Assembly: GCA_946615905.1 (NCBI GenBank)
Contig: CAMOIE010000004.1
Location: 62,001-126,000, forward strand
Direction of reading: 5' to 3'
DNA length: 64,000 bases
From: an uncultured Treponema sp.
Lineage (GTDB): Bacteria; Spirochaetota; Spirochaetia; Treponematales; Treponemataceae
Part shown: piece after piece, positions 27,445-60,457 of the stretch
Position numbering within the stretch: position 1 is the stretch's first letter
Layout of the letters: every line of letters begins with the position of its first letter
The notes under the pieces: generated by a model
What the model saw: the letters and a program-made list of their open reading frames with translations, nothing else
Databases searched by the model: none
What the model was told of the DNA's origin: nothing
Translations under genes and position numbers: made by a program

Positions 27445-27459
27445 AATAGCCTCCAAAAT

Positions 27460-27508
27460 AGTGGGTATTCCCACTTAGTATTTTATACTACAAACACCGT
27501 GAAATCAA
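27460..27508 (-). promoter_or_regulatory. Promoter and operator of the toxin-antitoxin pair
   Basis: On the minus strand TTGATT (27503-27508), a 17-bp spacer and TAAAAT (27480-27485). A perfect inverted repeat AGTGGG-TATT-CCCACT (27460-27475) covers the predicted start point, placing the antitoxin-toxin complex where it would block transcription. Confidence 0.7.
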
Positions 27509-31395: not shown

Positions 31396-32916
31396 CTATT
31401 TTACCACCCAATGACCAGTTCGGCTGTTGCCTTCAAATTCTACCTTGTCTTTAAGCTCTGCAAGCCGTCGTTTTACAGTTGAAACTGAAACTCCAAAAAT
31501 AGAAGCAAGAGTTTCTTTTGTAATCTGTGGATTTTTCAAAAGTACTTTCAAAATGTCGGTGTCGCTTAGGGACTCACGGGGTTCATTTTCGAGGTTCACG
31601 GGGTTCATTTGGGGGTCAGAAGACTCAATTCGGGGTTCACGGGGTTCATTTTCTGTATCAACGGGGTTCATTTTGGATTCAGTTTGAACCCCGTCCAAGT
31701 CAACTTCGAGAGTCATAGTTATGCGCTCTGGTTCAAAAGATTCCAAATACTTCGGTTCTTTGCCAGTATCGTTTTTTACAGTTCCAACAATACCAGGAAT
31801 TCCACTGCCTGCACGTTCGCCAATATCAATAAAGGCAAACAATTTTAGCATGATTGCATTGCGTGGGTCAGATGTTCCACCATTCAAAGCGTCAGAAAGA
31901 GGGATTCTGAATGTTCCTGGGTTCGCAAATTCAAGGCGGTCACGATACTTTTTTACGACAATGCCCTGCCGACCGTAATAATCCGCATGAACAAGAGCAT
32001 TTACTAAAGCCTCTCGCACCGCCTTGTGCATTGACGTGTCATCAACGCGAGTAATTCCATCTAACTTGAATGGTCTTTTCAAGCCTTCCTGCAAGCGATT
32101 TATGATTCGGAAAAAGAAATCGTAGACATTACCACTCCAGTCACCAGACGAAGAAACAATTCTATCTGTCCAGCGGATATTATTGTCATCGAAGTGCTCT
32201 TGATAGTCCAAAAAGTATTGTGGAAATTCACGGACAATCTTGTATTCCCAACCAAACAGCAGAAGGCCTGCGCCTGTCGGATGGAACTTGCCGTTTTCAT
32301 CATAATCAGCAGCACCGATTTTGCAAAGAAAATCATCATCTTCCAAATCATTCCAAATGTGATTGCTGTGTACTACAGAAAAATATTTGCGGTAGGACTT
32401 CACAGTTTCAGGGCAAAAAGCATCACTACCCATTTCTGAAATAAGTCGCATATCTTGACTTTCATTGCCTGCATCACGCACTATGGCTTTAACTTCTTCG
32501 TTTGAAAGACAGAAATCACCATCGCCATTTCGCCTGTAAGTTCCGCCAAACATATTTCCGTTGATAAAAACTGGGCGAATTGTACGTCTTGCACGAGGAA
32601 CTTCAATGATTACAACTTCCTTATCTTCATAATCCAACTTGTAGACATTCTTTTCTTTTAGAATGTTGGCACTTGTCTTGTTGCGATTGTTCAGATTATT
32701 CCAAATGTCACGCTTCAACTTTTCAGCATCGCTAACACCGCTGATTATAAGTGTGTGGTCAGCCTTTTCTTTTGCACCAAGAATAATTACACCGCCTTCT
32801 GTGTTGGCAAAAGATGAATATGTTTCCCACAAACTAGACGGAAGTTTTTCTGCTGCCGTTTTTGCTTCGAGTTGATTGTTTTCGATAAGGTTAGTGATGT
32901 TGATTAGGTCTAGCAT
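31396..32916 (-). CDS. AlbA_2/Schlafen-type ATP-binding regulator
   Basis: A 506-residue protein. The N-terminal AlbA_2 domain (NQLEAKTAAEKLPSSLWETY; SFANTEGGVIILGAKEKADH) binds nucleic acid. The middle carries a HATPase_c_4/RecG-C-like region (MHKAVREALVNALVHADYYG; GDWSGNVYDFFF). After a repetitive linker with recurring NPV..ENEPRE units (encoded by CGGGGTTCATTT-type repeats at 31575-31690), a C-terminal winged helix ends TGHWVVK. Such proteins are often transcription regulators and are frequent in defence islands. AGGAGG precedes the ATG. It is the last gene of the AT-rich insert beside the histidine kinase; its relation to the Druantia-like operon is unproven. Confidence 0.8.
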   Translation of the reverse strand: MLDLINITNLIENNQLEAKTAAEKLPSSLWETYSSFANTEGGVIILGAKEKADHTLIISGVSDAEKLKRDIWNNLNNRNKTSANILKEKNVYKLDYEDKEVVIIEVPRARRTIRPVFINGNMFGGTYRRNGDGDFCLSNEEVKAIVRDAGNESQDMRLISEMGSDAFCPETVKSYRKYFSVVHSNHIWNDLEDDDFLCKIGAADYDENGKFHPTGAGLLLFGWEYKIVREFPQYFLDYQEHFDDNNIRWTDRIVSSSGDWSGNVYDFFFRIINRLQEGLKRPFKLDGITRVDDTSMHKAVREALVNALVHADYYGRQGIVVKKYRDRLEFANPGTFRIPLSDALNGGTSDPRNAIMLKLFAFIDIGERAGSGIPGIVGTVKNDTGKEPKYLESFEPERITMTLEVDLDGVQTESKMNPVDTENEPREPRIESSDPQMNPVNLENEPRESLSDTDILKVLLKNPQITKETLASIFGVSVSTVKRRLAELKDKVEFEGNSRTGHWVVK

Positions 32917-33017
32917 TGTTTTGAAGCCTCCTTTGTCTTTATTTTATCCTGTGTCGCTTCCAAAAATCTATCGAAGTCGCTCTTATAGGTTTTTCCAGCC
33001 ACCGCAGTTGTTTCCAT
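32910..33017 (-). CDS. Possible small protein, 35 residues
   Basis: An open frame from ATG 33017 encodes METTAVAGKTYKSDFDRFLE followed by a Lys-rich end. It fills most of the 116-bp gap between the two AlbA-type genes, and its stop overlaps the next start (ATGCTAG). This suggests coupled translation, and the composition looks coding. There is no clear ribosome-binding site. It could instead be the remnant of a longer gene. Confidence 0.35.
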   Translation of the reverse strand: METTAVAGKTYKSDFDRFLEATQDKIKTKEASKQC

Positions 33018-33032
33018 ACTATCAGAAAGTAT

Positions 33033-34433
33033 TTAGCCGATTACTTCCCAATGACCGCCATTGTCTGGGCCGATTCTTACGATTTGATTTTTCTCTTTCA
33101 ATTGTTTTATTTGCCACTCAATTCCTTTTTGTGTTATTCCAAGCATCTCAACAAGTTCAGAGGTTGTTATGTATTTATTTTCTCGAATCAATTGTAATAT
33201 TTTCTCCCTAGTTTTCTCCCTAGTTTTCTCCCTAGTTTTCTCCCTAGTTACTTCCGCACTTGTAAATTTTTCAGTTAAAGTGCCTACGTTTTCTTTAGAA
33301 TCCACAGGCATGGCAACATTCTTTTCTGCTGTATTTGCCGCAAATTCAATTGTCACATCATCGCCGAACACCTTAAATATTGGATTCGGATTGCCGTTCT
33401 CTTTGCAGGCATTGCACATTTTTTCAATTCCACGCCCCCATGATTCGATGAACCCTGCTTTGAAAAATGTCGATGCAATCAACGGATTGTATTTCACGGA
33501 TTTGTGGGCAGTCATAAATGTGTCAGCCGTCCAATCAAACGGAAGGGCTGCATCGTTCGAAATGATGATTTTATCAGCATATATGCGGATTTGAGTCGGA
33601 TTCATGCAATTATAGGCTCTGTGGACAATCGCATTATAGACGGCTTCACGAATCGCCCCGTAAGCAAACGGAAAGGTTTCCACTCGTGTAACACCTTCAT
33701 AGGATATAAATGCCTTCAAATATTTTGTGAAAATCAGTTCAACCGTTTTTTGTGCCTGTTCCAAAAGAGAACCTTTAACTTCGTCCTGATATAAAATTTC
33801 CGCCCCTTCAAAATAGCCGATTTTTATATACGAGCCGATAACCCTCTTTTCAGTATCCTTTGCGAAAAGAAGAAATCCCGCCTTTGTGAGTTTTCCATCA
33901 TCTGTGAACAAATTCAGTTTTTCAAGAAGGTCTTTATTCGGAATGTTCACATCTTCCGAATTCATGCGCCCAGACTGAACGGTCTTATCCCTAAAAATCT
34001 CAAACGACACTTCCGAAAGAAAACTCATATCGGCATTCGGAACTTCCGATGCATCCCAAGACAGACCTGTCTTTTTGAGAAGGAACTGCGTAAGAGCATT
34101 TCCTTTCAGCTGCTGCTTTGTACTTCCGCTTCGATAATGATACTCGCCTTTGTAACTGATTGGAAAAGAACTAGGTTCAACAGTGATTTTTATGACATCA
34201 ATCGGCTTGTATTCCGGAGCAAAATCCACATCGCAAATTATACCCAGCGTGTCACGGATTTTATTGGGAATGTCTTCCATCAGTTTTTTAGAATCATCCA
34301 CACCACAAGGTTTTCCTTTGTCGTCAATGCCGATATATAGCATTCCGCCCTGTGCATTCGCGAAACCACATATCCATTTGAGATATTCATCTCGCCATGA
34401 TTCTTTGTATTCGATGTTTTGGGATTCGGACAT
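33033..34433 (-). CDS. AlbA_2/RecG-like ATP-binding regulator
   Basis: A 466-residue protein. The AlbA_2 domain is at the N-terminus (NIEYKESWRDEYLKWICGFA; NAQGGMLYIGIDDKGKP). A HATPase_c_4 region (FPFAYGAIREAVYNAIVHRA) is followed by ESWGRGIEKMCNACKENG, a signature of this family. The linker consists of four TREK units (REKTREKTREKTREK), and the end is a winged helix with final GPDNGGHWEVIG. It starts 38 bp after the DUF1998 helicase gene with GGAGAAAC before the ATG, so it may be read with the defence operon and control it. DNA binding is inferred from family. Confidence 0.82.
   Translation of the reverse strand: MSESQNIEYKESWRDEYLKWICGFANAQGGMLYIGIDDKGKPCGVDDSKKLMEDIPNKIRDTLGIICDVDFAPEYKPIDVIKITVEPSSFPISYKGEYHYRSGSTKQQLKGNALTQFLLKKTGLSWDASEVPNADMSFLSEVSFEIFRDKTVQSGRMNSEDVNIPNKDLLEKLNLFTDDGKLTKAGFLLFAKDTEKRVIGSYIKIGYFEGAEILYQDEVKGSLLEQAQKTVELIFTKYLKAFISYEGVTRVETFPFAYGAIREAVYNAIVHRAYNCMNPTQIRIYADKIIISNDAALPFDWTADTFMTAHKSVKYNPLIASTFFKAGFIESWGRGIEKMCNACKENGNPNPIFKVFGDDVTIEFAANTAEKNVAMPVDSKENVGTLTEKFTSAEVTREKTREKTREKTREKILQLIRENKYITTSELVEMLGITQKGIEWQIKQLKEKNQIVRIGPDNGGHWEVIG
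33200..33247. repeat. Four tandem 12-bp repeats coding for a TREK linker
   Basis: Four exact copies of TTTTCTCCCTAG. The unit is a multiple of three, so copy-number change would lengthen or shorten the linker without breaking the frame. Confidence 0.95.
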
Positions 34434-34471
34434 ATTAAGTTTCTCCGTTCAAGTTATAAAAATAAAAAAAA

Positions 34472-37400
34472 TTATTTCAAATTCTGTAAGAATCTAGTTA
34501 CAAAAACTTTCTCCATATTTTCTGGGAATCCATTCTTTTTTAACAATGATTCAACATAAACCTTACTCCATAGAGGATGGGTCAGTATTCGCCTACTGCC
34601 ATTTATTTCAATTGTTATCAATTCTTCCGTATATTCAGGATTGTAAGACTTTACTCTATCATCGACCAATTTTTTCCAATAGGATTTCTGATAAGACGGA
34701 ATAAAGTCAGAATCCGAAGAAATAGCTGCTAAGTCTAATCCAATGCGCCAATTCAATATGCTGTGATTCTGCTGATTGTAATAATCTCTCAGACAATCAT
34801 AGCAAGAAGAGTCACAGTTTTCAGAATGCTTTTCATCTGCTAGCTGTTTATATAAATATCCACCTTGTAGCAAAGGCTCGATGAAAATCTTTCGTTTTTC
34901 TTCGTCTGATACAGTTCCTAGGTGATTCGTATAGCCAGCACCATTTTCCAAATTTTCAATCAGATAAACAGCGGGTCTTATTCCGTTTTCTTCACCACGT
35001 ATAAAATAATTTATTGAAAGTTCTGCCGTTTCTATATCGAGATAAGATGCGACAACTTTTCTTATTAAAGTTCCCCATGATAAAAAAGCACCTTTTATTT
35101 CATTTATTTGCACTGCATCAAGATTGTTGAAATCTGGAACAATGCAAATATTACGATTTTGCTTTTCTACAGCTGCTTCTACGACACCTGTAACTTTTGT
35201 AGATATTAAAGCGACTTCTCTTGTTATGTCTGGATTCAATTCAAAATATTTTGGAGTATCTTCAGGGGAATACCAACCAGAATATTTCTTTGATTTTTGC
35301 AAAGAAAACAATTTGCCAGAATTTGTATTTAATGTATTGACAATTCCTTCATGCGGATATTTGTTATTTCCGATTAGAAGATTGGAATTATTTACTCGAT
35401 TCAATGCAACTTTTGTTTTTTCACTGTCAATTGAAGTCTCACTTGTTTCCGCATTCCAATCAAAGCGACCATTAAAATCTTTTGGAGCACTGGAAAAATC
35501 AGTCCTAAATCCTGTAGGTGTTGCTACATCTGTAAATTCATTAAGAACTGTTTTGCATATAGGGCAAGAAGTCGTATCTTTGTTTTTATCAACGAATGTC
35601 GTATAGCCACAAACCTTACAGTTAAGGACTTTATTTTCTAAGAAAGTTTCAAGCCCATCATTTTCTTTTGGTTGGGCAGAGCCTTTTTGTGGTTCGTAAC
35701 CAATAAACCCTATTGAAGTTAGGACTTTTTTATCCTTTACAATTTGCGCTCCTGGTGTAAATGTCTGTAAAGCCATGTCGATAGGACGGTCGGTAACATC
35801 TTCAGGAGGAAACTTGCGAACAGGACTTTCGTATAAATAGCGAACCTGTGTAGGGAAACCGAACATCGGAAGTAGTCCTGTCGCCGCAAGTCGCTCACTT
35901 AAATCTGTTTGAATAAATTCTTTCTGAGCGAGTTTTTCATCTATAACGGAAATCAATTCTTCTGTAATAAATGTAAATAGTTCAGCACAGGTTTCGTCAT
36001 CTATTTTTTCAACATTTCTAAGATATTGAATGATAGATTTTATTTGTGGATGGTTATTATTAATCCAATTAGCAATATCCTCTTTATAATCAGTCCAATC
36101 AACAACCGTGCCAAATTCACCGTGTACAGAAGCATTGTTTTGGGGTAATTCAACAGTCATAAATGCCTTGCGGAGAACTTCTTTTATCACAAAGCGTTTT
36201 AAAATCTCTACACTTCGCAAATCTATATATGGAGCAGAAGGAATTCCAGCAACCATTCTTTCAGGTTGATTGTAGTGCAACTGGTCATGGCTGTTTACTT
36301 TTGCGACTGTCAAAGCAAGAGAAAGAGCTGAGCCGCGTCTACCGGCACGACCAACTCTTTGTTGATAATTGAATCTCTGTGGAGGGACATTGCCCATCAT
36401 CACGGCAGTCAACGAGCCAATATCAACACCTGCTTCCATCGTAGTTGTTACGCTAAGCATATCAATTTCATCTGTAAGTTTGTTTTCTTTTTCATTCATT
36501 AAGCCCATAAAATAACGCTGTCGAATTTGAGCTTCTGACTTATTTGTTTGACCTGTAAGTTCCTCACAATGCAGTCGCGAAAGTTCCTGTAGGTTGCTTG
36601 ATTGAACATAATAATTCTCTTGCATTGATTTAGTAAGTATTATGTGGTCTTGCTCTGTTATTGGCTTGCAACAAAATGTGCAAACTCTTTGGTTACTGTG
36701 TAAGTCGATTGTTCCACATTTTGAACAGCGTATGATTTTATCACCGAGCTTTGCTTTTACAAATTCTAGATTCTGTCCAGTAAGTCTCAAATCATCACTT
36801 TTTTGTAGAATTGATGAATTCACAAGAGCATCTACTGTTCCCCATAGTTTTGGTGATTTATTTCTATCTCCTCGCATCTGCTCCATATTTACAACAGAGT
36901 TATATTTTCTCAACCGCAATGAAAGACCGTCAACGGGTATTTCATCTTTATTATATATTCTCCAGCTTTCACCTAAAATCCGCACAAAAGAATCTGCTAC
37001 GGTTTGATCAATTTGAGTAGAAAGCTTGGAAACTTTAAAATATCCCAAGGCAAGATTCTCAAAAGTTCTTCGATTGGAACCAAACACAGTATTCAATATT
37101 TCAACAGTGCATTTTGAACGAATTTTATTGGCAAAATCTTCTTTTGCCTCTGTGTTAGTTTCAAATTTGAATGAAGTCCAATCTACACATTTTGTCCACG
37201 AAACCTCTTGATTACCGTCAGAGAATTTTTGGCATGAGGGATATGGACCTGCTGGATTGATACCAGTTTTTAGAAGAAGTTTGATAACAGAATCTGTAAT
37301 TTGCTCAAGATTCACATTGCCAGAATTAAAATAGTCATCAAGGATAGATTTTTCTTTTTGAGATATATCCCCGTCTAATTCATTTCGTATTAGCTGCTTA

Positions 37401-39655
37401 ATATTTTTGAGAAAATTATCCTGATCTATTTTCTCCTTGATTTCTTGTCTAAAATCTTTGTACCTTATCTCTTCCGCTCTCATTTGTTTAAGATATGATT
37501 TTACATCCGAATGAGAGTCCAAAGATTGCAAAACAGCATTGCGCAAGTTGTCTCGATAGTGGTCAAGTTCAATACCCGCTGAAAGTTTTGCGGCAGCTTG
37601 CCGACTATCTGAAAAGAGAACAAGCTTTGCCTGCTGGGAATCTTTTCTAAGAATACTCATCAGACTGTCTGCAAAAAGCTGATTTACCTTTTGAACACCA
37701 GTACCGTGTCGATACAATGCAGTAAAGGAATTATCATCTGTCTGCTTTATCTTAAATCCACAGTGCGGACAGGTTGAGGGAAATTCGAGGTCATCGTTAG
37801 ACCATTTATAATACAAGTAACCACCATTTATGCCGATAAGAATTTTTCCTGTCTCTGTTTCATATTTGCATTCACCCCAATTCTTTTCATCAAAAATTTT
37901 CTCCCCAGATTCTTTTTTATATAGAATTGTTCTACGCTTGCTTAAATCCATCAAGGGCTTAGTATTGTTGAGAATTTTATCTTCCTCATAGCCAGAAAGG
38001 AATATTTCACCGCATTGGCGGCAAATTATTGCTTCAAGGATTTTGCCGCCACAGGCGCATCGATTTTTAGGAGTCGAATATAATTTTCCGAATTTCCTTA
38101 TATGTGAATTAAAATTTTGAATTTGATTGCAGGCTGAAGAAGAGCAAATCCAGATATTGTCAACATTGCGGGCAAAATAATGCGCTCGCATTGGCTGTCT
38201 AAAACTTCCATCATCATTTTTTGTAAGATTCACAAGAAATAAAGCAACTTCGGTCAAAACAAGCCTGTCATTTTCAGACGGAAAAAGATTATCTGCTATA
38301 AATGAAACTGTTTTTGCATTGGCATTATTTTCAGAATCAAAGATTATAGTTTTTAATTTTTCAATAACCTGTGTTTTCTTTACAAAATCAGATATAGAAG
38401 AGAATCCTCTTGATGATAAAATATCAGAAAATTTTGCTTCGGATGTTTTTGAAATGGGAGAAATACTTGCAAGTTCTCTAAAAATAGAAATCGGAAGTTC
38501 AATTTCTTCTTGCTCTATTTCTTCTTTCGAGTCAGAAATTATAGAAAATCGTTCAATTGGGCAGTTGAAAAAATCAGAGACAAACTCCTTGTTTTCTTTT
38601 GAATCAGGCAAAGAGGCGCTGGATGCCAAGAAACGAATCTGCGGAGAATCACTTTTTAGTCCAAGTCGCTCAAATAAAACCTTCAAAATATATGAGACCT
38701 CTGTTCCAGCAGTCCCGCGATATGTATGAAGCTCGTCAACTACCAGCGTAAATATGTGACTTTTGTCCTCTTCAAGCCATTTGCGAGTTTTTTCAAATAT
38801 AGAACTCTCCGTTTTTCTCATCGTCATTATATTCAGCATGCTGTAGTTTGTAATGAGTATGTCTGGCGGATTTTCTTGCATGTCGCAACGCAATATCATT
38901 TCCGCAGAATCAGGTTCTGTGCATGGAATTGAATATTGAAGCTGCTCTAATTCTGGTGGAGTGGGATTTCCTTTTAATTGTCTTTGCAGTTCACCCCATG
39001 CATCTTGATATTGGCGCAAATCTGAGTTTCTAGATTTTTTATTTTTGCCATCTGTTCTACCAGTATAGCGTCCAAATGTGATGCGATTTCCTTTGCAATT
39101 TTTATTAAGCCATTCTCTTACATCTTTATTATCAAGAGATTTTCTCAAACGCACCATTTGGTCTTCTGCCAAAGCATTTAGCGGATATAAAATAAGTGCC
39201 CTCATCGCTTTTGGGCGTAAATCTGGCGTTTGCCAGGTTTTAGCTTCTGAAACCAAACTTGAAATAAGAGGAATCATAAAACATTCGGTCTTTCCTGAAC
39301 CAGTTCCTGTTGTCGCTACGATATTTTTTTTTAGGATAAGACTGTCTTCAACCGCTTTTATCTGGTGCTTATATAATCTTCGTTTACTGCCATCATCATT
39401 TTTTAACAGTCCTAAATCTAAAAAATCCGAAATAGCTGTATCTATATGATTTCTATAACATAGATTTTCAAGAGTTTCGCAGCCATCATATTTTTTGACA
39501 AACTCAATTATAGGACTTTGCATTATTACTCCGTCCTGAGAATAAAGAGCACGACGTTCATTTTTATAATCATCATTTGGAAGCGGAATTCCAGAATCCA
39601 AATAGTTTAAGTAGTTATTCTTGAGTTTTCTTCCAATTTCAACAGGGTTCTCCAT
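34472..39655 (-). CDS. Druantia-like DruE: giant DEAD-box helicase with DUF1998
   Basis: A 1727-residue SF2 helicase. Walker A is VATTGTGSGKTECFMIPLIS, Walker B is VVDELHTYRGTAGTE, motif III is LASSASLPD and motif VI is QRVGRAGRRGSALSLALTV. Several Cys pairs would bind zinc (CACGGK..CRQCGE; CPHCGF; CSKCGT..CTFCCK; CKVCGY..CPIC). The C-terminal DUF1998/MZB module has CDSSCYDCLRDYYNQQNHSI. Size and order match DruE of Druantia anti-phage systems, where it is the only recognisable enzyme. It follows three unassigned genes with a 10-bp gap. The AT-rich composition supports acquisition. Other DUF1998 helicases (DISARM DrmA, Dpd) are shorter or have different neighbours. Confidence 0.8.
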   Translation of the reverse strand: MENPVEIGRKLKNNYLNYLDSGIPLPNDDYKNERRALYSQDGVIMQSPIIEFVKKYDGCETLENLCYRNHIDTAISDFLDLGLLKNDDGSKRRLYKHQIKAVEDSLILKKNIVATTGTGSGKTECFMIPLISSLVSEAKTWQTPDLRPKAMRALILYPLNALAEDQMVRLRKSLDNKDVREWLNKNCKGNRITFGRYTGRTDGKNKKSRNSDLRQYQDAWGELQRQLKGNPTPPELEQLQYSIPCTEPDSAEMILRCDMQENPPDILITNYSMLNIMTMRKTESSIFEKTRKWLEEDKSHIFTLVVDELHTYRGTAGTEVSYILKVLFERLGLKSDSPQIRFLASSASLPDSKENKEFVSDFFNCPIERFSIISDSKEEIEQEEIELPISIFRELASISPISKTSEAKFSDILSSRGFSSISDFVKKTQVIEKLKTIIFDSENNANAKTVSFIADNLFPSENDRLVLTEVALFLVNLTKNDDGSFRQPMRAHYFARNVDNIWICSSSACNQIQNFNSHIRKFGKLYSTPKNRCACGGKILEAIICRQCGEIFLSGYEEDKILNNTKPLMDLSKRRTILYKKESGEKIFDEKNWGECKYETETGKILIGINGGYLYYKWSNDDLEFPSTCPHCGFKIKQTDDNSFTALYRHGTGVQKVNQLFADSLMSILRKDSQQAKLVLFSDSRQAAAKLSAGIELDHYRDNLRNAVLQSLDSHSDVKSYLKQMRAEEIRYKDFRQEIKEKIDQDNFLKNIKQLIRNELDGDISQKEKSILDDYFNSGNVNLEQITDSVIKLLLKTGINPAGPYPSCQKFSDGNQEVSWTKCVDWTSFKFETNTEAKEDFANKIRSKCTVEILNTVFGSNRRTFENLALGYFKVSKLSTQIDQTVADSFVRILGESWRIYNKDEIPVDGLSLRLRKYNSVVNMEQMRGDRNKSPKLWGTVDALVNSSILQKSDDLRLTGQNLEFVKAKLGDKIIRCSKCGTIDLHSNQRVCTFCCKPITEQDHIILTKSMQENYYVQSSNLQELSRLHCEELTGQTNKSEAQIRQRYFMGLMNEKENKLTDEIDMLSVTTTMEAGVDIGSLTAVMMGNVPPQRFNYQQRVGRAGRRGSALSLALTVAKVNSHDQLHYNQPERMVAGIPSAPYIDLRSVEILKRFVIKEVLRKAFMTVELPQNNASVHGEFGTVVDWTDYKEDIANWINNNHPQIKSIIQYLRNVEKIDDETCAELFTFITEELISVIDEKLAQKEFIQTDLSERLAATGLLPMFGFPTQVRYLYESPVRKFPPEDVTDRPIDMALQTFTPGAQIVKDKKVLTSIGFIGYEPQKGSAQPKENDGLETFLENKVLNCKVCGYTTFVDKNKDTTSCPICKTVLNEFTDVATPTGFRTDFSSAPKDFNGRFDWNAETSETSIDSEKTKVALNRVNNSNLLIGNNKYPHEGIVNTLNTNSGKLFSLQKSKKYSGWYSPEDTPKYFELNPDITREVALISTKVTGVVEAAVEKQNRNICIVPDFNNLDAVQINEIKGAFLSWGTLIRKVVASYLDIETAELSINYFIRGEENGIRPAVYLIENLENGAGYTNHLGTVSDEEKRKIFIEPLLQGGYLYKQLADEKHSENCDSSCYDCLRDYYNQQNHSILNWRIGLDLAAISSDSDFIPSYQKSYWKKLVDDRVKSYNPEYTEELITIEINGSRRILTHPLWSKVYVESLLKKNGFPENMEKVFVTRFLQNLK

Positions 39656-39665
39656 TTCTGCACCT

Positions 39666-40589
39666 CTATATATACTTTATAGACTTTTTGGCGAAAATCC
39701 GCTCAATTTCTTTGACGGCTTCAATGCTTATATTCTTGAAAGGAACATCAGGGGTGGGAAGACAAAATTGCGTCTTTGCTATTTGCTCTGGGCTGAACAA
39801 TAAAAGAGCGCGGGTAAATAAAATCGGCAGTTCTGAATAATAATAGCACTTAAGTTCTTTCTTTCCTTTACTGTATTCAAATAAAGGTTTAGAAAAAGAA
39901 GTATTTGTAATACGAACATACAAGCGAGCTAAGTTCAATGCGTCTGGATTCTCATCATAATCAGGAATTTTGTGGACATCATTCTTCTCATCCAATAAAA
40001 ATGGCGAATACCAGACAACATCATCAGTTTTGTAAATTCCTGTTTGAGATACAGCATCCATGCACTTTTTATAAGAATAGTCATAAAGATTCATATAGAA
40101 ATTGAAATTCTTTAATTCTATGTCAGCTAATTGAAAATATGCTATCTGAACTCGTATTGATGGATAAGATTTTAGAAAACCATACGCATCAAAAACTTTA
40201 CAAGTTTCTCCATTTGGATTGTCGTTAAAATCTGGCTCATTCAATGAATATTTTGAAAACCAGGGATATTTTTTTGTGAGGTGAAGTGCCTCTTCACAAT
40301 TGATTTTTAAATTCTCATTCATGCAATACCGCAAGACATTATTTTTTTCTTGCTTGCAAACTTCGATTGTTCCATTGCGCAAAAGGGGAACAAATATTTT
40401 ATATTCAGGATAATTGCCAAAGAACTTTTTCTTGTCATCAGAAAGAGACTCTACAATATTGATGCATGCTTTATGAATTCTTGACCATGAAGCACACCCT
40501 TGCTCATAAAGCCAAGGACAGAGTTTTTTTTGAGAACTTCTTATTGTTTCTATTTCTTCAAGAGAAATTGTATAGATATCAGTACTCAA
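39666..40589 (-). CDS. Druantia-like operon protein, 307 residues, unknown
   Basis: No family is recognised. The protein is soluble and rich in Tyr, Phe and Lys, with conserved-looking segments KLCPWLYEQGCASWSRIHKA near the N-terminus and YYYSELPILFTRALLLFSPE near the C-terminus. Its position just before the DruE-like gene and its size (DruD of type I systems is about 340 residues) suggest a DruD-like role; this is positional inference. Its first 11 bases overlap the end of the upstream gene, so the two are translationally coupled. Confidence 0.6.
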   Translation of the reverse strand: MSTDIYTISLEEIETIRSSQKKLCPWLYEQGCASWSRIHKACINIVESLSDDKKKFFGNYPEYKIFVPLLRNGTIEVCKQEKNNVLRYCMNENLKINCEEALHLTKKYPWFSKYSLNEPDFNDNPNGETCKVFDAYGFLKSYPSIRVQIAYFQLADIELKNFNFYMNLYDYSYKKCMDAVSQTGIYKTDDVVWYSPFLLDEKNDVHKIPDYDENPDALNLARLYVRITNTSFSKPLFEYSKGKKELKCYYYSELPILFTRALLLFSPEQIAKTQFCLPTPDVPFKNISIEAVKEIERIFAKKSIKYI

Positions 40590-42537
40590 AATATGCCCTC
40601 AATTCATTTGTGTCTGCCAATCGCGGTCTATCTGATTTCAATTCAGAACTTTTAAAGTAGCACGGATTTTCTGTCACTGGGTCAATATCAAAATCAACTG
40701 GCAATGTTGCAATATCATCAATATTTGAAGGATTTCCTAGCGTTCCCCAATTCTTGAAATATGCAGGATTTAATTTCAAACCTAGGGAATTCTCCCCTGA
40801 TGAAGGAAGCAAAGTTGCAAAAATTGTAAGATTACTAGGAAACGGAATCGCATACCCTTGCAGGACTGGCTCGCAACCATTTATAAGATTCAGTAAAGGT
40901 CTTAACCCGCACTCTGGCTGTGTAATATTCAGACCATCAAGAATAAGGATGTAATTCTTTTCAGGATTTTTATCTGCTTCTTTAAAAGGAACAAGAAGAC
41001 CATGATTGCAAAAATCTTCATAATGAAGCCAATCATGTTCTACATGAATTGTATAGACCTCCGCATTTCTCACGGCTTTTGCAAAAAGAAATCCCCATGC
41101 TACGCAAGGTACAAAACAAGCCTTAAAATTTAAGTAATGTCTTGCGCTTGTTACAAGTGCTAAAGGAGAATCTTCCAAAACTCCTAAATTTCGCAATAAA
41201 ACACTTTTTGCAGATTCCTCTGTTTTCTCTTGTAATTCAGTAAAACAAACACCTTCATCGGGGAAATATGCTGGAATTATTTTATTTGTTGCATCCTCGT
41301 CTTTTTCAATTTTACTGGTATGATTTACCTGTGCTGTATTCAATGATGGAAGAGCAACGGACAGAGTTGCAAGCACGGTGTCATAGTTATTGTTCAAAAT
41401 ATCGAGTTGCTTTTGTTTTTCTGCAAGTTCTTTTTCAAGATTCGCCGTTTCTTTCTTAATGCGTTCATTAACTGCATCCGATTTTTCTTTGTACTCAGCT
41501 TTTAGGGAATTAATTTTCTTTTGCAATTCATCTTGTTGTTTTTTCTGATTTTCAAGAATAGACTTATTATTCAGAATTTCATCCGATGCATTTTCAAGGA
41601 GTTCTTTGTTTATACGTTCTTCTACTTCTTTTTCAATTATATCAATGTTATCAACAAATTGACTGAAATATCCCTTATGTGTACAAACCAATTCTACTAA
41701 GTTTTGAATATCAAGTTCAATAGCATCTGCTTTTGACTTTATTCTTTCCAAGCGAGTTAAATCCAAGTCATCTTCTTGGCTTTGTGCTTCAGGAAAACTG
41801 CAGATACTAGATATCGCTTGCTTGTTTACACCGATCGAATTACTAAACTTTTTTGAGAACCAATCCGCAAGTTGCTGGTCAGTCATAAAATCTATCATTG
41901 ATTTTCGTTCAAGTGTATTGCCTTTTAAATTTATCAAGGCGTACCTTTTGTTTTTATTGAATACCATATTTTCAGAAGGAATAAAAAAATGTTGAACTTC
42001 TTTGCCATAGTTTGATTCAATAGTATCTGTTGCCGCCGTGTATTTGAATATGCCGATTGCATCATTTGTATTTTCATCATAGAGCAAAAAATTCGTATTT
42101 ATCTTTTCAAAAAGATTTTCTTTGTCTAGTGTGTTATTCAATTCTGCTGGTGAGATATACTTATTTGCTATTATTTTTGGGACTTTTCCATTGTAGGGAA
42201 CCATTTGAATTAAATTGACACCTTTGGGTCTGAAATCATAATCAATAATGAAATCTGTCTGGTTAAATACGCGAGTCTCCTTTTCCAGACCTTTTTTTAT
42301 TGCAAACTCTACAAATTGCATAGCATTAAACGGAGAGTTAAATTCCGCATAATAGCCAGGGGCAAAAACAAATCCTTCTGGTGGACAAAATTGTTTAGCA
42401 TCACTTGCAGAAAGTTTTTCATAACTGCCATTTTCTTCATTCCGTTTAGCAACGATTTTTATTAGAGCATTGTCACCCTTGTTAACATCACTTGCTTTTA
42501 TTCTGTCGGATACAAAACCTAAAAATCTTTCACTCAT
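40579..42537 (-). CDS. Druantia-like operon protein with coiled coil and degenerate AAA-like domain
   Basis: A 652-residue protein. After an N-terminal beta-rich part there is a coiled coil at about residues 290-400 (KKQQDELQKKINSLKAEYKE). The C-terminal ~220 residues resemble the AAA+ core of McrB-like GTPases: NYILILDGLNITQPECGLRP sits where Walker B (DEIN) would be, and NLTIFATLLPSSGE looks like sensor 1. The acidic Glu is replaced (DGLN) and no GxxxxGK loop precedes it, so nucleotide hydrolysis is unlikely. Position and length are like DruC (about 630 residues). It overlaps its upstream neighbour by four bases. Confidence 0.6.
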   Translation of the reverse strand: MSERFLGFVSDRIKASDVNKGDNALIKIVAKRNEENGSYEKLSASDAKQFCPPEGFVFAPGYYAEFNSPFNAMQFVEFAIKKGLEKETRVFNQTDFIIDYDFRPKGVNLIQMVPYNGKVPKIIANKYISPAELNNTLDKENLFEKINTNFLLYDENTNDAIGIFKYTAATDTIESNYGKEVQHFFIPSENMVFNKNKRYALINLKGNTLERKSMIDFMTDQQLADWFSKKFSNSIGVNKQAISSICSFPEAQSQEDDLDLTRLERIKSKADAIELDIQNLVELVCTHKGYFSQFVDNIDIIEKEVEERINKELLENASDEILNNKSILENQKKQQDELQKKINSLKAEYKEKSDAVNERIKKETANLEKELAEKQKQLDILNNNYDTVLATLSVALPSLNTAQVNHTSKIEKDEDATNKIIPAYFPDEGVCFTELQEKTEESAKSVLLRNLGVLEDSPLALVTSARHYLNFKACFVPCVAWGFLFAKAVRNAEVYTIHVEHDWLHYEDFCNHGLLVPFKEADKNPEKNYILILDGLNITQPECGLRPLLNLINGCEPVLQGYAIPFPSNLTIFATLLPSSGENSLGLKLNPAYFKNWGTLGNPSNIDDIATLPVDFDIDPVTENPCYFKSSELKSDRPRLADTNELRAYFEY

Positions 42538-44075
42538 TTTGTCAGCCTCATTATATTTTTATTTAAGAATCTATTTTCAAACCGATTGATTTGTTTAATA
42601 AAATTGCGTCCTGAAGACTTTACACCTAAATCATCCACTCCATTTTGAATTGGTGTAAAATCAAAATTTGTACAAAATCCGTTGATAATATTTGAGGAAT
42701 CTTCTTCTGTCTGTGCAGGTGAAACAGAGTATGGCTGAAATGACCATCCAGAAATATCATAGTTTGCAGACTTTACTCTTTCAGGTCTGTCTATTTTGAA
42801 TTTTACAGGAATATAATCTGGAAGTTTCAATGTGTAAGTTCCATCATTGCTTTTAAGCAAATTTTTAATTTCCTCAAGATAGATTCTATTTCCATTTATC
42901 TCTACTTCTACAGCATTTATAAATGCCTTCGATTGTTCTTCTGAAAATTCAATAACAGGGAGAGCAAAATCGTAATAATGTCCTTTTCTGTTTTTCAGAC
43001 CACCTAAAAATTTGATTGGTGCTTTTACTTCTTGAATTTTTAAATTGAGTAATGAACAAAGTTCTTTAGTTGTTTTGCAAATATATGCATATAAATTTAC
43101 ACCATCGCTTGGTTGATGAATTTTTCTTATAGTGAATTTATCAATTGGCAATTCTTTTTCTGTTAATAAAACTATTTCACAGCCCAGGTCAATCGGTTCA
43201 TTGCAAAGCTCATACAATCCGCTTTCATCATATTCTTTAAAATACAATAAATTTGAATTTGAGTATAAAAACGACTCTATCAACTTTTTATCGACTATAT
43301 TTTCGCCTGTTGCTTTATCATAAATATATATTTCATTTTCATTGATTTCTAATACGACATTGAATTTTTCTCGTATTGATTTAGAAGAATGAGAACTCTT
43401 CGTTCTTGTAATTATTTCATTATATGAGCGACCATCCCAAATGCAGTAAAAATTCCAAACTGTTCTGCGATAGGACTCTTTGACGAAACGAGAAAAAAAC
43501 ATCTCGCAAAACACTTTATATGAAATTTGAAGTTGATTAGGTAACAATCCTCTCCGAATAAAAGTATCTGCATATCTTAAGAGTTGTGTATTCGGAATTT
43601 CATGTGCTTTCACAGGATATTGAACATACTTTCCAGTACCGGAATGGTCTTCCGGTATTTCAAGATTCCTTTTATATGAAGCAAACAATTTTTTTACTGC
43701 AGTCCACAATTCAATTTGATTGCCTTTGAAATATGAATTCATTATTTCCGCAGGATATTCACAGTTTTTGTATTGCGGATAATTATCTCTTATTTTTTGA
43801 TAATACCCATCTGTACCAGAAGCGGTAACAGACTCAACATCTCCCGCAATTTTTACTTGGAAAGCTGCAATTGCCAATGCTTCTTTAGGATTCCTGAAAT
43901 ACAGTTCTTGGTGTTGCAGTCTGTTTATAAGTTCATTTTCATCAATATTTGCTGTTTCTGCACAAGAAGAAAATGTATAGTCATCAATGGAAAGTTTGAA
44001 TTCCATATTTTCTGCATAATTCGAGAGAAAATAGCCTAATACAGACTGTCCAAATTCTTCAATAGTCATGCTCAT
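42534..44075 (-). CDS. Druantia-like operon protein, 513 residues, unknown
   Basis: This is the first gene of the defence operon. No domain is recognised. The N-terminal 150 residues are helical (TIEEFGQSVLGYFLSNYAEN), and the remainder alternates short beta strands with Tyr-rich segments. Length and place resemble DruB (about 546 residues). No DUF4338 (DruA) gene precedes it within the insert. A second in-frame ATG lies two codons downstream. The AT content is among the highest in the window. Confidence 0.6.
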   Translation of the reverse strand: MSMTIEEFGQSVLGYFLSNYAENMEFKLSIDDYTFSSCAETANIDENELINRLQHQELYFRNPKEALAIAAFQVKIAGDVESVTASGTDGYYQKIRDNYPQYKNCEYPAEIMNSYFKGNQIELWTAVKKLFASYKRNLEIPEDHSGTGKYVQYPVKAHEIPNTQLLRYADTFIRRGLLPNQLQISYKVFCEMFFSRFVKESYRRTVWNFYCIWDGRSYNEIITRTKSSHSSKSIREKFNVVLEINENEIYIYDKATGENIVDKKLIESFLYSNSNLLYFKEYDESGLYELCNEPIDLGCEIVLLTEKELPIDKFTIRKIHQPSDGVNLYAYICKTTKELCSLLNLKIQEVKAPIKFLGGLKNRKGHYYDFALPVIEFSEEQSKAFINAVEVEINGNRIYLEEIKNLLKSNDGTYTLKLPDYIPVKFKIDRPERVKSANYDISGWSFQPYSVSPAQTEEDSSNIINGFCTNFDFTPIQNGVDDLGVKSSGRNFIKQINRFENRFLNKNIMRLTK

Positions 44076-44141
44076 TATTTTTCTACCAATACATTATTTC
44101 GTATCAAAACTTTCTAATTCTTATATCAAGTATCTATGCAT

Positions 44142-44171
44142 ATTATATCATTCTTTTTTGCATTTGTGTAA
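44142..44171 (-). promoter_or_regulatory. Probable promoter of the defence operon
   Basis: On the minus strand TTACAC (44166-44171), an 18-bp spacer and a perfect TATAAT (44142-44147), leaving a leader of about 60 bases. The flanking DNA is very AT-rich, so other start points are possible. Confidence 0.5.
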
Positions 44172-44381
44172 AAAACATATCCCTTTACAAATCTTATTGC
44201 ACATATAAGAACAGTTGTTTAAGCGACATTAACCACATGAATTGCTTCACTCCAACATTGCAAATTTTATCTTTCCACCTTATACTCGATCTCAGAGGTA
44301 TGAAGCGTTTCGGACGTTTGGCATGGGGCTGAATTTTTTCAGCATCAGTGCGTCTGCCCAAACATAAAGGGGGTTTGCAAT

Positions 44382-44725
44382 ATGTCAAAAAGCAAAGAAT
44401 TTTGGTCACTTATGACCACTGTCCTCGCAATGCTCAAAGACGGCAAAACTGACGAAGCTATTGAATTGCTTCAAAGCAAGATTCCTGAAACTTCAAAAAA
44501 AAGGATTAGGCAAGCAAAAACTCGTATATGCTTTATTCCGAGTCTGACAGCCAAGAGGATGTAGAAATCTTCGAAAAAGCATTGGACGAATGCCTCAAAT
44601 ACGGGAAAATCATGGTTGTCTGCCCCTATTGCGGAACAAAACTATTCAAAGATTCTGTTACAAACAGTTTTAATATTCGTTGTCATACCGATGGCTGCTT
44701 TTCTTATGCGGTGCGGGGGTTATAA
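44382..44725 (+). pseudogene. Decayed zinc-ribbon protein gene
   Basis: A start with a strong GGGGG site encodes MSKSKEFWSLMTTVLAMLKD and continues to PETSKK. The sense then shifts twice: KQKLVYAL in a second frame, and SESDSQEDVEIFEKALDECL in a third. It ends with a zinc ribbon, CPYCGTKLF followed by Cys and Cys (IRCHTDGCFSYAVRGL). Shifts fall at a run of eight A (44495-44502) and near 44533. Joined, this would be a protein of about 110 residues. Two indels argue for a pseudogene over programmed shifting. Confidence 0.6.
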
Positions 44726-44729
44726 TAAA

Positions 44730-45377
44730 CTAAGCTTTTGCCGCTTCTATCGCCTCAATTATCCCTTCAGCATCACAACAATACAAATCTGCTCCGCTGA
44801 AAGGATTCATCTCTACGAGGAACAGTTTACTTTCGCTTTCGCACACATCAATTATATATGCCGCATCATACTCTTGTTTGATATCAGCAATGTTTTGTGC
44901 AAACTGCCATGCGTCCGAGTTTCCGACGACTGCCACGCCTTTTCTGCCGTCCGCTTTGTATTCGCATCCGGTGACGATTCTGTCTGCCACACAGACAAAG
45001 CGCCATTCTTTTTCGATAGCCTTGTATTCGCTTAGAACAATCGGAAGATTCATGTTGTAATGATAAAAGCCATAGTCAAAGTGTGCGGGAGTAAGATTTT
45101 GGACATCAAGAATCCGTCCGCTAAATTCTTTGAGAGGGCTGTTCGGGCGGGCAAAGATTTTTCCATGAGAATATGAAATCCGTTCCAAGATTTTAGGATT
45201 GTTAGTGACTTCCGCAATTGTCGTAAAAATTGGATTTTTATTCAGGAGAAAATCTTTATAATGCTCAAAAATGTATGAATACGAAAATCCGACTTCATCA
45301 CAGAACGCACCGGGACAAAAATCTAGCTCCCGCCGGATTCTGACGGCAAACGCATCGTTTTCAATCAACCATGTCAT
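44730..45377 (-). CDS. ATP-grasp domain protein (R2K-clade type)
   Basis: A 215-residue protein whose C-terminal half shows ATP-grasp features: YKAIEKEWRFVCVADRIVTG, then a helix, then FLVEMNPFSGADLYCC, where Glu and Asn bind magnesium. The short N-terminal part (FEHYKDFLLNKNPIFTTIAE) fits the compact R2K clade (DUF4343), which is common in phages and conflict-related loci and is thought to ligate peptides or modify proteins. The substrate is unknown. It follows a small acidic membrane-protein gene by 3 bp, so the two form a pair. It converges with the decayed zinc-ribbon gene. Confidence 0.7.
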   Translation of the reverse strand: MTWLIENDAFAVRIRRELDFCPGAFCDEVGFSYSYIFEHYKDFLLNKNPIFTTIAEVTNNPKILERISYSHGKIFARPNSPLKEFSGRILDVQNLTPAHFDYGFYHYNMNLPIVLSEYKAIEKEWRFVCVADRIVTGCEYKADGRKGVAVVGNSDAWQFAQNIADIKQEYDAAYIIDVCESESKLFLVEMNPFSGADLYCCDAEGIIEAIEAAKA

Positions 45378-45380
45378 ATT

Positions 45381-45674
45381 TTACCAGTTCTCCTCATCTT
45401 CCGCATCCCAATACCTTGCGTCATCCCCATCATCAAAATCATCCACATCGCTAGCGTCGATGTCGCCTTCCATCGCAAGAAGATAGGCTTCGCGGGCGGT
45501 TTCGTCTGCTATGTTGAGGTCGCCTGAGTCGTCTTCATAGGGTGTGGGAATTTCGCCGCCGTAGTAATCTCGCTTGATGTTTGGCGAAAAATGATGAAAG
45601 TGTTGACTTCCGCCAGAAGAAAAAATCACACCGATTATGACAGCGACAATTATAAGGAAAATACAGAAAATCAT
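45381..45674 (-). CDS. Small membrane protein with acidic tail
   Basis: A 97-residue protein with one N-terminal membrane helix (MIFCIFLIIVAVIIGVIFSS). The remainder is strongly acidic (SDVDDFDDGDDARYW, ending DAEDEENW), probably cytoplasmic and disordered. No family is recognised. GGGAG lies before the ATG. It is coupled to the ATP-grasp gene by a 3-bp gap, which makes its acidic tail a possible substrate of that enzyme; this is speculation from neighbourhood only. Confidence 0.6.
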   Translation of the reverse strand: MIFCIFLIIVAVIIGVIFSSGGSQHFHHFSPNIKRDYYGGEIPTPYEDDSGDLNIADETAREAYLLAMEGDIDASDVDDFDDGDDARYWDAEDEENW

Positions 45675-45790: not shown

Positions 45791-46519
45791 TTATTCTCCG
45801 TTTGCCTTTTCACCAGCCACCACCTCCAGCCTAAACCCAAATCCCCACACGGTCTCTATCTTGAGATTCTCGTCTTTTTCGCGGAGTTTTTTGCGAAGGC
45901 GCTTAACGAGGTCGTCGGTCGCGCGGGTGTCGGATTCCCAGTCGATTTGCCAGACTTCGTGCAACAGCTCCTTGCGGCTCACGGCCTTTCCCGCGTTGCG
46001 CGCAAGATGGGAGAGAAAGCTGAATTCGGCGCTCGTCAAGTGAATTTCCTCGCCCTTGACGAGAGCGCGGGGAACCAGAGGAAAAATCGAAAGAGAGCCG
46101 ACTTTGATTTCTTTTTGAGACTCCGCTTTCTGTGCGTTTTGTTCAGTTTGTGCGGAAACTCGGCGCAAAAGAGCCTTGACGCGGGCGACAAGTTCGAGCG
46201 GCAGAAAGGGCTTTGCCATATAGTCGTCGCTCCCGAGCGTAAGCCCCGCAACGCGGTCGAGCGGGCTGTCCTTCGCCGAAACGATGATAATCGGCAGGTT
46301 CGGGGAAGTGGCGCGGAGCGCGGAACAGACAGAAAGCCCGTCAGTTCCTGGCATCATAATGTCGAGGACGACAAGGTCTGCTTTCTTTGCCTCGAACGCA
46401 CGAAGAAGCGCGTCGCCGTCCGAGAAAACTTCGACCTCATACCCTTCGCGCGAAAGAAAAGCCTTCATCAGCGCGCGGATGTTCTCTTCGTCGTCTGCAA
46501 TGTAGATTGTCTGTGGCAT
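45791..46519 (-). CDS. OmpR/PhoB-family response regulator
   Basis: A 242-residue two-component regulator. The receiver domain has the acidic pocket DDEEN, phosphoacceptor Asp in LVVLDIMMPGTDGLS, and Lys in GSDDYMAKPF. The C-terminal winged helix (HLTSAEFSFLSHLARNAGKA; TRATDDLVKRLRKKLREKDE) is of the Trans_reg_C type that binds tandem direct repeats of about 11 bp. The start is set by GAGG before ATG 46519; the longer frame is not supported. Two TGCCACA boxes lie upstream. Its probable partner kinase is at 29846-31282. I infer that it controls the redox genes at 47913 and 61144. Confidence 0.93.
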   Translation of the reverse strand: MPQTIYIADDEENIRALMKAFLSREGYEVEVFSDGDALLRAFEAKKADLVVLDIMMPGTDGLSVCSALRATSPNLPIIIVSAKDSPLDRVAGLTLGSDDYMAKPFLPLELVARVKALLRRVSAQTEQNAQKAESQKEIKVGSLSIFPLVPRALVKGEEIHLTSAEFSFLSHLARNAGKAVSRKELLHEVWQIDWESDTRATDDLVKRLRKKLREKDENLKIETVWGFGFRLEVVAGEKANGE

Positions 46520-46585
46520 TGTGAACCTCGCTTTAGGGATATTGTATGCGATTTGCGGGAATTTTTCATCTATGGAGATGGAGAC

Positions 46586-46603
46586 TGCCACAATTTTGCC
46601 ACA
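46586..46603. promoter_or_regulatory. Two TGCCACA boxes, 11 bp apart, upstream of the response regulator gene
   Basis: TGCCACA starts at 46586 and 46597. The pair lies about 67 bp upstream of the regulator start and about 55 bp before the Fic promoter. The 11-bp period is that of OmpR/PhoB-type binding. Relative to the regulator gene the boxes are in reverse orientation, so autoregulation is possible but not shown. Confidence 0.6.
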
Positions 46604-46633
46604 GAATTGTGCTTGATTTGCTATCCGCATTTT

Positions 46634-46683: not shown

Positions 46684-47769
46684 ATGAGCAAGATAACCGA
46701 CCCTGACCAGCCCACCCCTTGGTACATGGGCTTTGAAGAGTACGAAAGAATAAGCGAGCCTCACAAAAAGGAAAAGTCATTTGCCTGGACAACGGCAATC
46801 GGTTTGCAGGCTGTGGACGGGCTGACTCCTTCAAAATATCTTTTGGAAACCGCCCGCCGCAACATTGAAGGCCAAATTTCCATTCAAGAAGCCAACAGAA
46901 TTATTGAAGAATACTACCAAAGTGAACAAGGTCGCGAAGCAGAAAAGAACGGACGCACGGAAGAGGCGGATAAAGTCAGTGCAAGAATCGCAGAGATTTT
47001 GAATGACGGAACATTTACTTTTAAGCCGACCACGTTGCAGAATATTCACGAGCGTCTGTTCAAAGGGATTTATACATTTGCAGGAAAGGTTCGCGATTAC
47101 AACATAACAAAAAAAGAATGGGTCTTGGACGGCGACACGGTTTATTATTCAGATTTCAGGGAAATAAAAGAGTCCTTGAAATATGATTTTGAAAACGAAG
47201 CCAGTTTTTCATACGCTGATTCTTCTGACGCAGACTTTGTAAATCATTTTGCAAAGTTTATAAGCGGCATCTGGCAAGTTCACGCTTTCGGAGAGGGCAA
47301 TACCAGAACAACCGCAGTTTTTGCAATCAAGTATCTTCGCTTTCTTGGCCGCGACAAAGTAAACAACGAACCTTTCGCCGAAAATTCCTGGTATTTTAGG
47401 AATGCCTTGGTGCGGGCAAATTACAATTCCTCTTCAAAGGGAATAAACGGCGAGCCGTCGTTTTTGATAAAATTCTTTCGCAACCTGCTGTTGAATGAAA
47501 AGAACGAGCTTAAAAACCGCTATATGCACATTTATTGGAAAGGCGGGCAAAATCCGACTGTAAATCCGACTGTAAATCCGACTGTAAACAAATTGGACTC
47601 ACAGATAATCGAAGAAATGAAAAAAAATCCAAGAATCACCTATTCTGAACTTGCAAAGATTACCGGCAAAAACCGAGACACAATCGCCGTTCACATAAAG
47701 AAGATGACCGAAGCGGGAATTGTAAAACGCATCGGCCCAGACAAGGGCGGTCACTGGGAAGTGCTGTAA
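46684..47769 (+). CDS. Fic family protein with C-terminal winged helix
   Basis: A 361-residue protein. The Fic core carries the active-site motif HAFGEGNTRTTAVFAIKYL; the common HPFxxGNGR is HAFGEGNTR here, with His retained for AMP (or other nucleotide) transfer. The flap segment is around WVLDGDTVYYSDFREI. An N-terminal helix (LLETARRNIEGQISIQEANR) resembles the second half of VbhA-type antitoxins, though the inhibitory (S/T)xxxE(G/N) motif is not exact. After a linker of three NPTV repeats comes a winged helix ending GPDKGGHWEVL, almost identical to the end of the AlbA protein at 33033. Target and regulation are unknown. Confidence 0.85.
   Translation: MSKITDPDQPTPWYMGFEEYERISEPHKKEKSFAWTTAIGLQAVDGLTPSKYLLETARRNIEGQISIQEANRIIEEYYQSEQGREAEKNGRTEEADKVSARIAEILNDGTFTFKPTTLQNIHERLFKGIYTFAGKVRDYNITKKEWVLDGDTVYYSDFREIKESLKYDFENEASFSYADSSDADFVNHFAKFISGIWQVHAFGEGNTRTTAVFAIKYLRFLGRDKVNNEPFAENSWYFRNALVRANYNSSSKGINGEPSFLIKFFRNLLLNEKNELKNRYMHIYWKGGQNPTVNPTVNPTVNKLDSQIIEEMKKNPRITYSELAKITGKNRDTIAVHIKKMTEAGIVKRIGPDKGGHWEVL
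47551..47586. repeat. Three tandem 12-bp repeats in the Fic linker
   Basis: Three exact copies of AATCCGACTGTA encode NPTV units between the Fic core and the winged helix. The frame is preserved whatever the copy number. Confidence 0.95.
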
Positions 47770-50148: not shown

Positions 50149-50892
50149 TCAACGTTTCATCGTAAATCTACATCTTGGATAATTTGCGCAACCGTAGAAA
50201 TCACCGTATTTTCCTTTGCGCAATTTCAATTCTCCGTTGCATCTCGGACAGATTAAATTACTCTCTTTCATCTTTTTTTCATAAATCGTGTCATTGATGT
50301 TTTTTATATGTTCTTTTTTAATCTTTTTATCGTCTATATTACTCTGATTCAGAATCGCAACAATCTTATCGACTTCTTCAATTGTCAGACACGGTGAAAC
50401 AGAAAGCCTGCGTATCGTTGCATTTAGTTGATTTGCATAAATTACAGGAGCGGACGATTCTATTTCTTTTAAGGTTGCACTTCCTGCAAAAACGACAATC
50501 GGAAAATACGGTAAATTTGGAAAATCAGTCAACATTTCCTTGAGTGCATAGATGTGGGAAAAATTCTGTTTTATAGGATTTCGGAACTGATGTTTTTCTT
50601 TGTAAAGAACTTGCATCCAGTTTTCGGCATTTTCTTTTCCGAAAATCCAGCCCTTGTAGTTTTTCGTTTCGATTACAAAAATACCGTAAACAGAAACCAC
50701 AACATGGTCGATTTGCGATGTCTTTCCAGATTTGTTCAGCAGAATCACATCGTTGAGGATTTTGTAATTTGTGCTGTCTAAAAACGACAAATTGAGCGCA
50801 ACACGCTTTTCACCAATCGAACCTTTTATCTGCGGAGATTTTATTTTGAGGAAGATGAAGAGAATTGCAATGATGAGGAAGATATATATCAT
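50149..50892 (-). CDS. NERD-domain protein with C-terminal topoisomerase-type zinc finger
   Basis: A 247-residue protein. It begins with a single membrane helix (IYIFLIIAILFIFLKIKSP). The NERD nuclease-related domain follows (GSIGEKRVALNLSFL; KTSQIDHVVVSVYGIFVIET with the Asp/Glu pair of a PD-(D/E)xK-like core; then NYKGWIFG). The last ~35 residues form a topoisomerase I-like zinc finger (CPRCNGELKLRKGKYGDFYG, then CANYPRCRF). The function is probably nucleic-acid processing at the membrane. Its start immediately follows the stop of the secreted-protein gene upstream, so the two are a unit. Confidence 0.85.
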   Translation of the reverse strand: MIYIFLIIAILFIFLKIKSPQIKGSIGEKRVALNLSFLDSTNYKILNDVILLNKSGKTSQIDHVVVSVYGIFVIETKNYKGWIFGKENAENWMQVLYKEKHQFRNPIKQNFSHIYALKEMLTDFPNLPYFPIVVFAGSATLKEIESSAPVIYANQLNATIRRLSVSPCLTIEEVDKIVAILNQSNIDDKKIKKEHIKNINDTIYEKKMKESNLICPRCNGELKLRKGKYGDFYGCANYPRCRFTMKR

Positions 50893-60343: not shown

Positions 60344-60457
60344 CAAAAATAAAACCACCCTCACAGGTGGTTTTTGAAAAATTTGGATGGGCGGCGTATC
60401 CATCATATCAGGTTCCCTTTCGGGAGCGCAGGGTGCCTTTCCTGCTCGTCAAATTTC
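60344..60457 (-). ncRNA. Candidate small structured RNA
   Basis: A strong minus-strand promoter (TTGACG 60487-60492, 17-bp spacer, TATATT 60464-60469) would start an RNA of about 115 nt that ends at the bidirectional terminator. The RNA can fold: AAAUUUG pairs with CAAAUUU to close it, with internal CCCGAAAGGG, CAGG/CCUG and GGAU/AUCC stems. It contains GAACCUGAU, which also occurs in thiamine riboswitches, but CUGAGA is missing and no gene follows, so it is not that class. SRP RNA was considered; the GGAA loop motif is missing. The RNA begins right after the PBECR-type toxin gene. Confidence 0.5.
60351..60375. terminator. Bidirectional terminator
   Basis: AAAACCACC pairs with GGTGGTTTT around a short loop. 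On the plus strand it is followed by TTTTT, and on the minus strand by TTTTATTTTT. It ends the helicase transcript in one direction and the small RNA candidate in the other. Confidence 0.9.

Follow-up and report, generated by a model that had tools for sequence, protein, structure and literature searches.

The window, a stretch of 64,000 nucleotides from an uncultured Treponema sp. (contig CAMOIE010000004.1, positions 62,001 to 126,000), contains on its minus strand a block of four open reading frames that runs from position 44075 to position 34472 and encodes proteins of 513, 652, 307 and 1727 aa. The coordinates and sizes given for these tightly packed genes in a preliminary description of the DNA were recovered exactly: orfA (42534..44075), orfB (40579..42537), orfC (39666..40589, with a TTG start) and orfE (34472..39655) are joined by few-base overlaps or a spacing of ~10 bp. 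A putative operon promoter at 44142..44170 on the same strand (TACACA-17-TATAAT, with TG ahead of the second hexamer; 10/12 matches in a consensus scan) is weak evidence, because comparable sites in the region are barely commoner than in shuffles (55 versus 43.9, only a slight excess).

The last gene had been read as a DUF1998 helicase with zinc motifs, and this reading holds. orfE is a YprA-family SF2 helicase with the Pfam domains PF00270, PF00271 and PF09369 (DExH helicase, DUF1998/MZB), intact TGTGSGKTE, DELH and QRVGRAGR motifs and seven CxxC pairs, and thus supplies the DruE helicase (YprA/DUF1998) that belongs to Druantia of any type; its PADLOC scores are 1322 bits for DruE4, 1321 for DruE2 and 681 for DruE1. 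Solved structures related to DruE, found by PDB sequence search, are 9wae (type not resolved) and 9tu7. A PADLOC run, which had been proposed as a check, recognised DruE alone at the locus, and orfA, orfB and orfC, searched singly against PADLOC, Pfam and NCBIfam, gave coiled-coil noise at most. PADLOC-DB sees only DruE here because the other three proteins are too diverged, and their identities therefore rest on family profiles.

The operon has a GC content of 34.6%, against 45.9% in the rest of the window, and a GC3 of 23-30%. It lies within a probable acquired segment (31396..45674, exact ends approximate) between a response-regulator gene (45791-46630, minus strand) and a histidine-kinase gene (29846-31282, minus strand), homologues of which are adjacent in related genomes, e.g. 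at G021:C3 141465-142517 and 142900-143586. Among 148 related genomes, orfC was found in its own genome only and was absent from the 147 others. The low GC content, the patchy distribution and the adjacency of the flank homologues suggest that the operon is an acquired island, although insertion is short of proof because the flanking homologues are only 34-40% identical.

Several other features were observed in the window. A Fic/DOC-domain protein (46684-47769, plus strand) has a C-terminal winged helix, HTH_24, like both AlbA proteins encoded at 31396-34433. The gene at 51534-52478 (minus strand) has a CoiA-like N-terminus that scores just under the Pfam cut-off, and by eye a similar cysteine/histidine motif opens E. 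coli DruB. A NERD nuclease-domain protein with a topoisomerase zinc ribbon is encoded at 50149-50892 (minus strand), an SF1 helicase of 850 aa with AAA_11/AAA_12 domains at 57762-60314 (plus strand) and a skipping-rope RNA (RF02924; 61 bits, over the gathering score) at 60378-60457 (minus strand), while two small overlapping genes of 125 and 92 aa at 26819-27474 (minus strand), with no Pfam match, could be a toxin-antitoxin pair.

Profile and structure analysis of orfA, orfB and orfC

In iterated profile searches from the window proteins, the 513-aa and 307-aa families took in the DruF and DruL of type II and type IV systems, whereas the 652-aa family hardly extended beyond its own clade. For the comparisons by hhalign, profiles were built separately from loci inside and outside this clade. 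The orfA family profile matched DruF of type II/IV at 100% (E 5e-43, 448 columns) over nearly its full length, against 1% for the reversed-profile control; with the proteobacterial type II DruF subset alone the match was 74% and covered the N-terminal 180 residues only. Family members in L060 and L122 match PADLOC DruF4 at about 1e-19. The orfA model (AF2, pTM 0.75) predicts a helical N-terminal half (1-235) and a beta-rich C-terminal half (240-465), and G359, P373 and G466 are invariant in the family. A structure search with orfA gave no convincing fold match, an Ig-like fold for residues ~350-431 (Z about 5) being too weak for use. The profile evidence indicates that orfA is a diverged DruF, the component that type II systems also carry.

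The orfC family, which has no known domain, matched DruL at 99.1% (E 6e-19, 277 columns; reversed-profile control 0.2%), the third gene of L122, a member of this family, matches PADLOC DruL4 at 4e-19, and the C-terminus of the large type II DruF itself matches DruL at 94%. By these profiles orfC is a diverged DruL. The components of type IV, DruE, DruF and DruL, are all found at the locus, though the PADLOC models miss orfA and orfC.

The orfB family profile matched DruG (proteobacterial type II plus L139) at 99.0% over 491 columns, residues 4-535 aligning to 5-568, which is nearly the whole length. Without L139 the match was 98% in the AAA+ region, and with two DruG sequences the alignment spanned residues 42-540; reversed-profile controls overall gave 0.2 to 6.5%, except for the single-sequence L139 control at 28%. 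The AF2 model of orfB, whose pTM of 0.43 allows it to be read only domain by domain, has a beta-rich N-terminus (1-216), a coiled coil at about 288-383 (a ~95-residue helix) and a C-terminal AAA+ domain (434-608) of McrB-like fold. This domain aligns over 148 residues with E. coli McrB (Z 10.4), and dynein and NorQ reach similar scores. The Walker A motif is absent from every family member, and all members displayed have another residue in place of the Walker B glutamate (DG, DI, NI and others). We conclude from profiles and models that orfB is a diverged DruG, the type II component, with a predicted dead AAA+ domain like that of McrB/CnuB. An inactivated McrB-like AAA+ domain with a coiled coil is also what a Type IV CoCoNuT carries.

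No conserved catalytic set was seen in the family alignments of orfA, orfB and orfC, and no nuclease was identified within the four-gene operon. When PDB sequences were searched, the family profiles of DruF and DruL had no matches and that of DruG had chance coiled-coil matches only. Plasmids searched by tblastn with orfA and orfB yielded no relatives, nor did viral contigs scanned with orfB.

Relatives, gene order and partner genes

The DruE alignment, searched against one genome per species (84,980 species), identified 80 loci, and a viral scan added 27. Relatives of orfE occur in an Epulonipiscium-like bin (50%, tblastn), a Treponema bin (44%) and many Bacteroidota (mostly 38-42%), and in these loci the genes upstream of DruE encode proteins of ~520, 600 and 290 aa. 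A tree of 116 sequences, DruE and outgroups, places the window and the 27 further loci that carry orfB beside DruE on one branch (support 100) in the type II/IV half, and type I DruE accompanied by DruA form a separate clade; the deeper branching order is uncertain because the tree was made by FastTree with an approximate model. L075, whose contig stops within the upstream gene, joins the window's branch and brings the clade to 29 loci. DruE in the clade is shorter, at ~1725 aa against a median of 1863 aa, and it is without the RecA1 insertion after residue 144 that an indel comparison finds in most type II/IV DruE.

Counting the window, 26 loci are sufficiently complete for the gene order to be read, and every one of them has DruF-DruG-DruL-DruE (hereafter F-G-L-E); because this order is repeated in so many loci it is far beyond chance. 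The hosts are mostly Bacteroidota and spirochaetes (Bacteroidota, Treponema, Epulonipiscium and others besides the window). The junctions are mostly small overlaps or gaps, with larger L-E distances in L060, L073, L078 and L088. At L075 1-2697 (plus strand), in a Treponema of the same clade, the gene before DruE encodes at least 899 aa with a DruL-like part, possibly a fusion.

The preliminary description was also right that no DUF4338 protein, DruA, is present. PF14236 had no match in the window's genome, a result that is weak alone since control genomes were blank as well, and a DruA profile that does detect DruA in type I loci found none in 28 clade loci. DruA is a type I component, and its absence is therefore expected in the type II/IV branch that holds orfE. 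A second partner is missing too: a DruM-like cytosine methyltransferase occurs in the flanks of 31/70 other type II/IV-like loci but of 0/29 clade loci within the flanks covered, where some contigs end early (Fisher p 2e-6, which overstates independence because the loci are related to each other). No recurrent fifth gene stands beside the operon, the largest neighbour group being found at 5/29 loci. The unusual features here are the joint presence of DruG and a separate DruL and the lack of a DruM-type methyltransferase. Judged from these sequences, F-G-L-E is a real methyltransferase-free sub-lineage that joins types II and IV.

Relation to known Druantia types and possible mechanism

The sizes and order of the genes are strikingly like those of type I (DruABCDE) in E. 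coli (L165), where DruB, DruC, DruD and DruE have 548, 627, 347 and 1836 aa against 513, 652, 307 and 1727 aa here, and a coiled coil and degenerate AAA+ domain are common to orfB and DruC. The locus might on this ground be a type I Druantia, DruB-DruC-DruD-DruE, left after loss of DruA, and orfB does match DruC at 65% with a two-sequence DruC profile and at 97% with a profile that also includes bridging proteins of L103, L104 and L122. That match, however, runs mainly through the degenerate AAA+ region, with the N-terminus outside the match to E. coli DruC; orfA and orfC are not detectably DruB and DruD (0.0% and 0.2% with shallow profiles of two and five sequences, so that distant kinship is possible); and orfE falls outside the type I clade, with 1322 bits for DruE4 against 681 for DruE1. 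We regard a reduced type I system as very improbable. The preliminary assignment of the three smaller proteins to DruB, DruC and DruD thus fails for DruB and DruD, and touches DruC mainly through the shared AAA+ region.

An ordinary type IV system (DruF-DruL-DruE) into which an unrelated gene has come by chance between DruF and DruL would agree with orfE being nearest to DruE4 by score and with the 46 loci that have DruF and DruL but no DruG, 26 of them also without DruM. Against this, every complete locus of the clade has orfB at this position, the protein is a homologue of DruG, which is an established part of Druantia systems, and DruC-like proteins are found in four further loci with DruF, DruL and DruE, which leaves a chance passenger improbable. 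The AlbA/Schlafen-domain regulators (31396-34433) had been suggested to take part, and they are codirectional with the operon and directly downstream of DruE, as would suit needed parts of the system; but homologues lie near only 3/28 clade loci (L064, L079 and a 94-aa fragment in L091), their GC3 of 37-40% is unlike that of the operon, and no fifth gene recurs. We saw no sign of their involvement and give it hardly any credence. In light of these comparisons, we consider it highly probable that the locus is an entire anti-phage operon of the Druantia family, which belongs to the type II/IV branch and consists of DruF, DruG, DruL and DruE, with neither DruM nor DruA.

In comparison with type II (DruM-DruF-DruG-DruE; proteobacterial L054, L168, L169 and L170), the locus shares homologues of DruF, DruG and DruE but is without DruM, and the DruL-like sequence, which in type II is the C-terminal part of the large DruF, is here a separate gene between DruG and DruE; type II DruE is also longer, at about 1960-1990 aa against about 1725 aa in the window's clade. 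Type IV as PADLOC defines it comprises DruF, DruL and DruE without DruG (PMC8565338). Its DruF and DruL are likewise separate genes, arranged as in the window, and its DruE falls in the branch that holds orfE, whereas the window has DruG, as orfB, between DruF and DruL, and a DruM-like methyltransferase is nearby in 20/46 of the type IV-like F-L-E loci but in none of the window's clade. The term Type IV CoCoNuT covers Druantia types I and II in the main text of Bell et al. 2025 (PMC12458937), and the locus resembles it in its YprA-family helicase and its homologue of the inactivated, McrB-like CnuB with a coiled coil. A widespread branch with F-G-L-E and no DruM was found neither in PMC8565338 nor in the main text of PMC12458937, though it may be listed in supplementary tables. 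The parts are known, and the combination is new relative to PMC8565338 and to that main text. "New subtype" was a fair description of the locus, whose three smaller proteins match the type II/IV parts DruF, DruG and DruL.

Family membership points to anti-phage defence by F-G-L-E. DruF and DruL, one fused protein in type II, would form an adaptor or sensor unit, DruG, McrB/CnuB-like but dead as an ATPase, would serve as the scaffold and dock the complex through its coiled coil, and DruE would be the ATP-driven effector that loads on phage DNA and remodels it. The sensor and scaffold roles are guesses because DruF, DruG and DruL are without known biochemical function. PMC12458937 describes an inactivated Vsr nuclease domain for the DruE of types I and II, its C-terminal nuclease being predicted inactive, and operons that carry an inactivated CnuB homologue; DruE is therefore favoured as a DNA-remodelling effector driven by ATP, and the C-terminus of orfE would, from this statement and our reading of its sequence, be inactive as well. 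The target of DruE would probably be replication intermediates, as reported for Druantia III, in which DruE works on ssDNA-containing intermediates and ATP-dependent activity is required (PMC13192584). With no methyltransferase in the operon, self would be told from non-self by recognition of a phage product or of DNA in an aberrant state, and not by protective methylation. We favour such methylation-independent discrimination, the one point of the mechanism with direct, if negative, sequence support, as no methyltransferase lies in the neighbourhood; complex formation, the trigger and the DNA target are presumed. A more far-reaching scheme, which we consider rather unlikely, is that F-G-L-E is the ancestral methylation-free form of the II/IV lineage, from which type IV lost DruG and type II fused DruF with DruL and recruited DruM, and that its core distinguishes phage from self with no need of DNA modification, by means of a helicase complex that contains no nuclease and is assembled on a dead McrB-like scaffold.

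The locus shows the components of types II and IV to be one modular family, and F-G-L-E, as its compact methyltransferase-free version, is a direct test bed for self/non-self discrimination and for the need for DruG. Annotation tools would report a lone DruE in such genomes because current models do not reach the strongly diverged DruF, DruG and DruL of this branch, a gap that family alignments as built here would mend. Other long YprA-like proteins in the window's phylum are mostly followed by genes of ~950 aa or more, a layout unlike F-G-L-E and ARMADA-like, a label given by layout only. A second arrangement, DruF, a DruC-like protein, DruL and DruE, is present in L101, L103, L104 and L122 (Poribacteria, Gastranaerophilales) and bridges types I and IV. 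At L136 15971-19744 (minus strand), DruG-like and DruL-like genes run antiparallel to a type IV-like DruE locus, which resembles two Druantia operons placed end to end.
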